Source: Lysinibacillus odysseyi
GTDB taxonomy: Bacteria > Bacillota > Bacilli > Bacillales_A > Planococcaceae
Assembly (NCBI GenBank): GCA_014595895.1
Contig: JABUKB010000001.1
Span: 1,550,001 to 1,614,000 of the forward strand
Reading direction: 5' to 3'
DNA length: 64,000 nt
A model generated the notes under the pieces. The model was not told where the DNA came from and did not search any database. It saw nothing but the letters and a program-made list of their open reading frames with translations. The position numbers and the translations under genes were made by a program. Below, piece by piece: positions 1,564 to 7,661 of this stretch. The number at the start of each line of letters is the position of its first letter. Position 1 is the first letter of the stretch.

Positions 1564-2067
1564 TCAATTCGCAAAATGCAGTTTTTTATTTAGTAAATAA
1601 ATCGTTACACCACCGACTGTCATTGACAATGCTTCGCCTACTGCCACCATGCCATATGTCGGCCAAAATGGTAAGTCGAGCATAATTGTCAGTTGGGCTG
1701 CTACTGTAAACATTGAGGCTGTTACTATAATCCCTGTTACGACAAATTTCATCACTTCATTTTTCATCTTTTTTGTCACCGCGCGACAAATAACCAAGAC
1801 AATGAATGTACATATACCGCCGATTGGCACATCAAGGATCCATGTTGGCGATAAAAAATTGGCTAGCACAACGCCAATTGTGACAGCAATAAGATAGCGC
1901 TTATGATATAAGGCTAAATAATTAAACATTTCAGCTAACCGCAATTGTACGGCGCCAAAGCTAATGACAGCCAGTACAACTGTCACTGCAACATAAAGAG
2001 CAGCAACGATGGCTGTTTTCGTAATATCTCCTACCGCTACACGCGATGTTGCAAGAGATGTTCCCAT
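1564..2067 (-). CDS. queT: QueT-family ECF transporter S component (queuosine precursor uptake)
   Basis: A very hydrophobic 167-residue protein with about five or six membrane segments. Motifs such as VQLRLAEMFNYLALYHKRY and the conserved PTWILDVPIGG are those of the QueT/COG4708 family. These are substrate-binding subunits of energy-coupling factor importers thought to take up preQ1 or a related queuosine precursor; the shared EcfA/EcfT module would be encoded elsewhere. The ATG was chosen because AAAGGAGGAA sits at the right distance; an in-frame GTG 30 bases upstream would bury that site inside the gene. The 5' leader is structured (separate entry). Family call good; ligand inferred from family. 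Confidence 0.82.
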   Translation of the reverse strand: MGTSLATSRVAVGDITKTAIVAALYVAVTVVLAVISFGAVQLRLAEMFNYLALYHKRYLIAVTIGVVLANFLSPTWILDVPIGGICTFIVLVICRAVTKKMKNEVMKFVVTGIIVTASMFTVAAQLTIMLDLPFWPTYGMVAVGEALSMTVGGVTIYLLNKKLHFAN

Positions 2068-2072
2068 ATGAA

Positions 2073-2170
2073 ATTCCTCCTTTATAAAATAGCCCACGCT
2101 ATTTTACTTCTAACTACAACCAAAGGAGTATGGGCAAATACCCTACCGAAGTGTCGTAGTGTGGTTTAAC
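2073..2170 (-). promoter_or_regulatory. Structured 5' leader of queT with ribosome-site masking potential
   Basis: On the minus strand a hairpin AGGGTAT/ATAC(T)CCT exposes the loop TTGCCC, whose GCCC can pair with TGGGC about 35 bases downstream, an H-type pseudoknot arrangement. The base run CTCCTTT at the 3' side of the hairpin is exactly complementary to AAAGGAG of the ribosome site. The two pairings interleave. An upstream dyad GGTGGTTAAACCAC is also present. By context it could be a preQ1 sensor, but I could not match it to a published preQ1-I, -II or -III consensus. Confidence 0.45.
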
Positions 2171-2210: not shown

Positions 2211-2936
2211 CTATTTATTGACCCAGCCGCCATCTACCGGTAAAACCGTACCGTGCATATAGCTCGCCGCCTCACTCGCTAAAAATAAGGTAACACTCGC
2301 CACCTCTTGCGGTTGTGCCCAGCGTCCTGCAGGCGTCTCCCGTGCTACCCATTTTGCCATCTCCCCGTCACCCGCGAAATCTGCCGCATTCATCGGCGTT
2401 TCAATCGCACCAGGAGCAATAGCATTAGCGCGGATACCGTCCACACAATAATCATAAGACAGCTGCTTTGTATAGCCGATGATGGCATGTTTAGAAGCGG
2501 TATACGCTGCACCGCCCCCGCCTGCTACCAGACCAGCAATTGATGCCATATTCACAATCACGCCCGTTTTACGTGCCATCATTTGAGGCAATACAGCATT
2601 CGTTACGATATAAGTGCCTTTTATATTCGTGTTCATAATACGGTCCCACAGTGCCTCATCTGTCTCTAAAGTTTTAGCATAACCATCTAAAATCCCCGCC
2701 GTATTGCATAAAATATCTACCTGTCCAATTTCTTGGATGGTTTGTTCAATAAACGCCTTGTTACTCACACTCCCGATAAAATGACGATAACGATTCTCTT
2801 TAACGGATGACGCTTGAAGGTCTAGACCAAACACTACCGCACCGTTTTTTAAAAAAGCCTGTACCTGAGCCAACCCAATGCCTGAGGCCGCCCCTGTAAT
2901 GACGATTCGTTTCCCTTGAAACTCTTGAAATTGCAT
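2211..2936 (-). CDS. Short-chain dehydrogenase/reductase (SDR), substrate unknown
   Basis: A 241-residue classical SDR. The Rossmann glycine motif TGAASGIG lies at residues 14-21, the NxAG motif at 78-81 (NTAG), the catalytic serine at 132 and YTASK at 145-149. The C-terminal half has the usual PGAIETPM segment and ends with LPVDGGWVNK, as in FabG-like enzymes. Expected to be a cytosolic NAD(P)-dependent alcohol/keto oxidoreductase; the sequence does not settle the substrate. The ribosome site TTGGAGGAA is well placed. A terminator separates it from the small gene upstream, so it is probably transcribed alone. Confidence 0.8.
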   Translation of the reverse strand: MQFQEFQGKRIVITGAASGIGLAQVQAFLKNGAVVFGLDLQASSVKENRYRHFIGSVSNKAFIEQTIQEIGQVDILCNTAGILDGYAKTLETDEALWDRIMNTNIKGTYIVTNAVLPQMMARKTGVIVNMASIAGLVAGGGGAAYTASKHAIIGYTKQLSYDYCVDGIRANAIAPGAIETPMNAADFAGDGEMAKWVARETPAGRWAQPQEVASVTLFLASEAASYMHGTVLPVDGGWVNK

Positions 2937-2952: not shown

Positions 2953-2992
2953 AAAAGAGCTGCTTAGAAAGGTATGCCTTTCTGAACAGCTC
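2953..2992 (-). terminator. Terminator after the DUF2829 gene
   Basis: Arms GAGCTG and CAGCTC with an inner AGAAAGG/CCTTTCT stem form a long hairpin followed on the minus strand by TTTT. It starts 6 bases behind the DUF2829 stop codon. Confidence 0.8.
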
Positions 2993-2998
2993 CTAATA

Positions 2999-3220
2999 TT
3001 ATTCTACAATTTTCCAATCTTCAGCTAAAATATCGCAAACAGTTGGTGTAAACATCGTATAGCCTTCACCTACTACGTTGATTACAAAATACGGATTCAT
3101 CGCTAGACCGTCTAGCTCTGTCGCTGGTACGTATTTTACGTACAATTCAGCTCCGCCCCAGCCAGCACGAATAATTTTTTCACCATTTTTTAAGCGTGGT
3201 AAAATTTCTTCAAATGTCAT
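2999..3220 (-). CDS. DUF2829 / Tad2-family small protein
   Basis: A complete 73-residue protein with the family layout: an N-terminal TFEEILPRLKNGEKIIRAGW block, a central YFVI strand, and the C-terminal signature CDILAEDW at residues 62-69. This is the DUF2829 fold, to which the phage Thoeris anti-defence protein Tad2 belongs; Tad2 oligomers sequester the cyclic ADP-ribose-type signal of Thoeris. Here the gene is alone, with its own terminator, between an SDR gene and the glycine-cleavage operon, and no phage genes are nearby. Whether it binds a nucleotide signal is inference. The weak ribosome site is GGATGG. Confidence 0.72.
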   Translation of the reverse strand: MTFEEILPRLKNGEKIIRAGWGGAELYVKYVPATELDGLAMNPYFVINVVGEGYTMFTPTVCDILAEDWKIVE

Positions 3221-3304
3221 TTATAAAACCATCCTTTTTCACTTCATCTCTCAAAGTATAAGGCAAAAAATAACGGTCCACAAGTATACGTTGTGCAGCA
3301 CGAC

Positions 3305-7312: not shown

Positions 7313-7540
7313 CAAAAAAAAGACAGACGGATCCCTTTTACGAGATCCTCTGTCCTTGCACCTGAAAGTATCACTTATTATTGGTCATCCAACCACATAT
7401 ATAAGCTTGCCCCGTTGGTGGTCGCATATAACGACACTCTCCAGAGTTGCGTCCTGTAAGAGTCTTTTTGCCTGAGAGATTCATAGTCTAAGCTACTTGC
7501 TCCTTCGGCGACGTGACATCACGTTCTCTCCCCATACATT
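7313..7540 (-). promoter_or_regulatory. Tandem glycine riboswitch with terminator
   Basis: The minus strand shows two consecutive glycine aptamers. The first opens with GGGGAGAG, contains CGCCGAAGGAGCAA and closes with AATCTCTCAGGCAAAAAG. The second has CTCTGGAGAG, CACCAACGGGGCAAG and TTTCAGGTGCAAGGACAGAGG. The 3' end of aptamer 2 (GACAGAGGATC) is also the 5' arm of an intrinsic terminator whose other arm is GGATCCGTCTGTC, followed by seven T residues. Ligand binding to aptamer 2 would therefore compete with the terminator, allowing gcvT-gcvPA-gcvPB transcription when glycine is abundant. Confidence 0.95.
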
Positions 7541-7661
7541 CATCCGCTACTATCCTTATAAATTGACTTTCTTAGCCATATCCTAACATTGAACAGTAGA
7601 TAAACGCAATTATTTTTTTCAAAACATCAAAAAACGAACAAAAATGATGAATTAACAATAA

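Follow-up and report, generated by a model that had tools for sequence, protein, structure and literature searches.

The Tad2 proteins of phages, among them SPO1 gp34.65, ModTad2, SptTad2 and HgmTad2/AcrIIA7, are the closest described relatives of the protein studied here, with which they have both a Pfam family and a fold in common, and they act as anti-Thoeris sponges that sequester gcADPR or related signals. According to a review, Tad2 binds gcADPR in a pocket to which the beta1-beta2 loop, strand beta4 and the beta4-alpha3 region belong, and cyclic dinucleotide binding is attributed to a long insert that separates beta2 from beta5 (PMC12043709). Two further known families bear on the present locus. 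The short-chain dehydrogenases of PRK06550 / NF005118 carry the automatic annotation name '3-oxoacyl-ACP reductase', and QueT transporters (PF06177) have been reported together with the preQ1-II riboswitch, mainly from Streptococcaceae and Lactococcus (PMC11625349).

We report the analysis of a stretch of 64,000 nt from Lysinibacillus odysseyi (GCA_014595895.1, JABUKB010000001.1, positions 1,550,001 to 1,614,000), referred to below as the window, which carries a compact member of the Tad2 family. What is new here is the recognition of a host branch of this known family that has a fixed dehydrogenase partner. We give about an even chance to the reading that the protein is a host member of the Tad2 fold, working in an obligate unit with an NAD-type dehydrogenase as a putative binder of a nucleotide-like ligand that serves the enzyme, and not as an anti-Thoeris sponge. 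The features of the locus are listed here from upstream to downstream:

3255-3283, minus strand: candidate promoter of the DUF2829-dehydrogenase unit (TTGTGG, 17 bases, TATACT)
2999-3220, minus strand: DUF2829/Tad2-like gene, 73 aa, of the putative host clade (open reading frame, PF11195, fold)
2955-2994, minus strand: hairpin with a UUUU tail in the DUF2829-dehydrogenase gap (-23.2 kcal/mol, z -4.7)
2211-2936, minus strand: NAD-type short-chain dehydrogenase (NCBIfam NF005118 / PRK06550), the constant partner of DUF2829
2077-2162, minus strand: preQ1-II-like QueT leader with an enlarged P2 loop, overlapping the QueT Shine-Dalgarno sequence (alignment, covariation)
1564-2067, minus strand: QueT-family transporter gene (PF06177) with its own strong promoter, next after the dehydrogenase

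An earlier note on this DNA had described a stand-alone DUF2829 gene with its own terminator in a housekeeping neighbourhood. The gene is real: the open reading frame of 73 codons begins with ATG, the protein ends in ...CDILAEDWKIVE, and a profile search with Pfam PF11195 (Tad2-like) matches residues 1-73 of 73, and thus the whole domain, at 76.5 bits (cut-off 25, E 2.4e-21). It is the sole PF11195 copy in the genome, and dN/dS values of 0.02-0.13 in most pairs of close relatives indicate purifying selection. The neighbourhood was also described correctly, with gcvPB, gcvPA, gcvT and a glycine riboswitch on one side and yqhL/lipM-like genes on the other. The riboswitch itself, a tandem one 5' of gcvT (7348-7543, minus strand, 68 and 40 bits), is ordinary for a gcv operon, and Rfam found no riboswitch 5' of the DUF2829 gene. 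The sequence at 3255-3283 is a possible promoter of the unit, read by eye from the sequence, that has 8 of 12 consensus matches and lies under the cut-off of the promoter scan. The gene is not stand-alone, for a dehydrogenase gene starts 62 bases downstream on the same strand and accompanies it wherever it is found. In two congeners (G001, G002), where gcvPB and yqhL lie about 320-340 bp apart, and in several other relatives, these two genes are adjacent; in the window the distance is 2042 bp and is occupied by QueT, the dehydrogenase and DUF2829. The three genes therefore stand at a place left vacant in near relatives, through either gain here or loss there.

The note had proposed that a predicted structure be compared with Tad2, and Tad2 crystal structures proved to be the only good fold matches. 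An AlphaFold model of the single chain, built with 54 relatives, reached a pLDDT of 95.3, and a Foldseek search with it returned 24 matches at E <=0.001, all of them Tad2 chains (E 3e-7 to 2e-4), the next match having an E value of about 1. ModTad2 (8v3e) superposes with a TM-score of 0.89 and 40% identity in the structural alignment, and SPO1 Tad2 (8smf/8wje) is matched as well; by sequence too the nearest solved structures are ModTad2 (8v3e, 9eib; E 1e-10) and SPO1 Tad2 (E 6e-5). Both the gene and its fold stand far above chance.

The partner is a protein of 241 aa that scores 362 bits against NF005118 (cut-off 270), with DUF2829 as the first gene of the unit. Like other members of PRK06550 / NF005118 it is a short-chain dehydrogenase of the classical type, and its active site is intact: S132, Y145 and K149 are invariant, as is D39, the aspartate with which the second strand ends, and the cofactor motif reads TGxxSGIG. 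An aspartate at the end of the second strand in short-chain dehydrogenases favours NAD(H). The presence of D39 thus argues against an ordinary NADPH-dependent FabG, whatever the automatic name of the family suggests.

A search of about 85,000 bacterial and archaeal genomes gave 296 loci, in Sporosarcina, Lysinibacillus, Kurthia, Caryophanon, Virgibacillus, Enterococcus, Vagococcus, Globicatella and other genera, and neighbouring genes were analysed in the best 80 of the 296. The dehydrogenase lies directly 3' of DUF2829 in 79 of these 80 (three of the 79 with an insert between the genes), the single exception, L071, being a frameshifted copy, whereas the nearest upstream genes belong to 38 different clusters over 78 loci. 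All 107 examined loci with both genes have them in the same orientation, commonly with a gap of -4 bp, in which stop and start codons overlap, or of about 55 bp. The inserts, all in Sporosarcina (L014, L021, L022), measure 2.0, 0.3 and 0.6 kb, and that of L014 holds a TetR-like regulator and an alpha/beta hydrolase-like gene on the opposite strand. No fusion of the two genes was present among the reading frames listed in the surveyed genomes.

The two genes are also gained and lost together. In 300 sampled Bacilli genomes the scores against the dehydrogenase profile are bimodal, 26 genomes lying at 306-424 bits and the rest at 247 at most, and these 26 are exactly the genomes with a compact DUF2829 gene, adjacent and co-oriented in every case; PF11195 as such occurs in 37 of the 300, the remaining 11 encoding other DUF2829 proteins and lacking the partner dehydrogenase. 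Because 17 of the 26 co-occurrences come from one genus-level group (f26, probably Streptococcus), they do not represent independent events. The contrasts at genus level are largely independent: in each of seven genera of mixed presence one member has both genes and another neither. Among 61 relatives, NF005118 is above its cut-off in 9 genomes, the same 9 that hold the compact DUF2829, and among 14 named control genomes both families are found only in Lactococcus lactis. A survey at phylum level beyond Bacilli (398 genomes) gave no more than two matches, one being the window's genome and the other a genome of f26. Constant pairing of this kind speaks for a shared role, not for direct contact.

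In the open-access literature we found no description of the DUF2829-dehydrogenase pairing, nor any report of a ligand, reaction or physical complex for the unit; a search of this scope does not prove novelty. DUF2829 proteins, of the paired or another form, are listed in proteomics tables from Streptococcus suis (PMC8125046) and, only after gliotoxin, from Enterococcus faecalis (PMC10533825).

The terminator of the earlier note proved to be a terminator-like hairpin that does lie 3' of DUF2829, where it sits inside the two-gene unit, and it is a probable intrinsic terminator or attenuator within that unit. A strong hairpin was counted in 32 of 37 comparable DUF2829-dehydrogenase gaps of relatives, by stability, given that the automatic terminator flag caught only 2 of the 37 because the T run pairs within the fold. 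Combined with partial read-through, a hairpin at this place would yield, in the window's family, more binding protein than enzyme.

On this basis we can sketch how the unit might work. The DUF2829 protein is probably a tetramer like Tad2, and would bind a small nucleotide-like ligand between protomers. Such binding would serve the dehydrogenase by holding, buffering or delivering its substrate or product; alternatively, the protein would sense the ligand and adjust the activity of the enzyme. A broader proposal, which we put forward tentatively, is that the binder and the dehydrogenase form a previously undescribed host system of Bacilli acting on a nucleotide-like metabolite, and that phage Tad2 and the host protein derive from one another. 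The metabolite is possibly a 7-deazapurine, because a second QueT gene often accompanies the unit.

That last observation also underlies the strongest competing explanation, according to which all three genes form a queuosine-precursor module, QueT importing preQ1 or a related 7-deazapurine, the Tad2-fold protein binding this compound or its nucleotide and the dehydrogenase oxidising or reducing it. QueT stands right behind the pair in 9 of 9 pair-bearing genomes of the window's family, 8 of which have a second QueT copy, no genome of the family without the pair has two QueT genes over the cut-off, and in the wider set QueT follows the pair in 69 of the 80 best loci; among the control genomes, all three families occur in Lactococcus lactis alone. 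The leader before QueT fits the same idea, for it has a preQ1-II-like core (CACUUC, and UCCUUU pairing with AAAGGA) with compensatory changes at 7 of 7 P2 pairs. Rfam makes no preQ1-II call on the leader in the window itself, and for the leader of one relative (L061) RF01054 reaches 32.6 bits (E 3e-4) against a gathering score of 47. Compared with the known association, the transporter family is the same and the leader core is preQ1-II-like. The differences are one of distribution, such leaders being found beside the unit in Enterococcaceae, the window's family and elsewhere, and one of form, since the P2 loop frequently contains an additional hairpin. Against a common module, QueT was not found within the 1.5 kb flanks of the f26 loci or near a Latilactobacillus plasmid copy of the pair, with a promoter and leader of its own it is transcribed separately despite the linkage, and a transporter so close by may simply hitch-hike. 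We regard the three-gene module as rather unlikely, if worth keeping in mind, and prefer the two-gene unit with a putative ligand of less definite identity.

A role of the pair in defence was also considered. The earlier note had offered, as one of its options, that the gene regulates a resident TIR-based defence, and this gained little support: the constant partner is a dehydrogenase, and the window's genome yielded no ThsB-type TIR (in a search whose positive control worked), no STALD (ThsA; searched without a positive control) and no CD-NTase. The look for Thoeris elsewhere in the genome, which the note had advised, did turn up one bSEFIR/TIR_2 gene, a candidate for defence, on another contig (G000:C11, L253 1480-2460, PADLOC E 4e-45); no Thoeris partners lie beside it in the stretch that was read, and nothing links it to DUF2829. 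This gene might still be set beside a more general explanation, in which the pair is a mobile stress or defence unit, toxin-antitoxin-like or anti-phage, whose binding protein senses a nucleotide signal and gates the NAD-binding enzyme. The pair is patchy within genera and shifts between sites and onto a plasmid, that of Latilactobacillus curvatus, where the two genes overlap at their ends and lie behind a mannose PTS operon. It is, on the other hand, common in f26, where it comes after metG in the locus inspected; neither protein matches PADLOC-DB, the dehydrogenase is a canonical intact enzyme, and the loci that were read have no defence-island context. We consider a mobile defence unit improbable.

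There is, finally, the possibility closest to the family name, that this is a domesticated prophage tad2 gene whose product is still an anti-Thoeris sponge. In its favour, sequence and fold are those of Tad2, and an alignment of 54 host with 92 viral or phage-type sequences gives a core common to both forms, consisting of F3, K11, G13, R18, G20-W21, G23, D63, L65 and D68-W69. Around this core the two forms part company at columns 22, 24-26, 52-54, 57, 60 and 62. The host proteins have G/S22, A/F24, E25 (100%), L26, E52-G53 (100%), F57 (W in the f26-type), T60 and C62 (100%), where the viral proteins have N22, K24, G25, M26, variable residues at 52-53, W57, S60 and S/T/N62. These differing columns fall in the gcADPR pocket as the review describes it (PMC12043709), the pocket being placed from that description and not from coordinates. 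The search patterns by which some of the viral sequences were collected themselves span pocket residues (columns 22-26). Five phage proteins chosen independently of these patterns all retain S60 and W57 and have a residue other than cysteine at 62, and four of the five have N22. The host form is further distinguished by its length of 73-78 aa without the long beta2-beta5 insert of Tad2, by its occurrence on bacterial chromosomes instead of phages, and by the dehydrogenase partner, which is constant here and absent from phage-type DUF2829.

The distribution of the compact form points the same way. Among 2.9 million viral contigs it occurs in only about 11, and the gene lies at or near the contig end in 9-10 of these, preceded in the contigs that were read by an integrase or phage genes, so that these copies are probably host flank. 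The option of a phage gene kept by its host therefore gives way to that of a host orthologue group, found at about 300 bacterial loci. An automatic tree of host and viral rows, built on few columns and unrooted, does not place the host rows on one side of a branch, and a tree that keeps them together, which the AU test does not reject (p-AU 0.56), has a better likelihood; a single host clade of the Tad2 fold is thus plausible from the alignment.

The viral and plasmid records deserve a description of their own. The IMG/VR contigs L092-L098 (9-14 kb) and L102 (6 kb) terminate at the DUF2829 gene and probably represent Streptococcus prophages or satellites. Two of them were read, L093 and L102, and both have an integrase gene some 95 bp upstream of DUF2829, pointing to an attachment site within this gene or ahead of it; in L102 the DUF2829 frame is broken near codon 24. 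An origin of the IMG/VR matches in the Listeria monocin (lmaDCBA) was rejected on the same arrangement, which looks like prophage or satellite edges beside a host gene. Host-type DUF2829 with 54-62% identity also appears in Klebsiella and Pseudomonas 'plasmid' records (including NZ_CP151545.1) and in a 'Listeria phage' contig. The latter, 'Listeria phage LM 4-14-1' (OR848486.1, L250), was not accepted as a phage copy, since it has an intact dehydrogenase downstream and is probably a mislabelled or contaminant bacterial sequence; the Klebsiella plasmid CP069369.1 (L251), with a broken dehydrogenase downstream, and NZ_CP151545.1 are probably likewise mislabelled or contaminant Gram-positive sequences.

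Taken with the absence of any Thoeris gene found in the genome (the STALD search, as noted, having no control), the obligate partner, the broad conservation under purifying selection and the near absence from viral contigs make a retained sponge very unlikely. The earlier note had named an absence of the nucleotide pocket residues, together with a lack of signal binding, as what would speak against its view, and for the residues the outcome is divided: R18, G20, W21, G23 and D63 are shared, while most pocket-loop positions differ. Of the three options that the note had offered, a family member with another ligand fits best, given the fold, the retained core and the altered loops, the ligand itself being putative. 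The two genes might also owe their pairing to neutral linkage in a common ancestor, which would say nothing about function, and a single genus-level group does account for much of the class-level count. We hold this to be most improbable, since the pair persists beside varying upstream neighbours, is jointly present or absent in seven genera, occurs on a plasmid and has overlapping stop and start codons.

The preferred reading of a host binding protein with a metabolic enzyme as its partner has consequences for how these genes are named and studied. The family name 'Tad2-like' leads to anti-Thoeris labels, and estimates of how many counter-defence genes Bacilli carry would be inflated as a result. 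The host branch, tied as it is to one enzyme, offers a direct route to the cellular role of the fold and to the origin of the phage sponges, and both genes are small, common and amenable to deletion or expression, for example in Lactococcus lactis. For other evasion proteins, an origin by co-option from the host has already been suggested (PMC11722364). Phage Tad2 probably has a host relative with a different, metabolic job and, if this is true, a fold used by phages for immune evasion would have a metabolic counterpart in their hosts.
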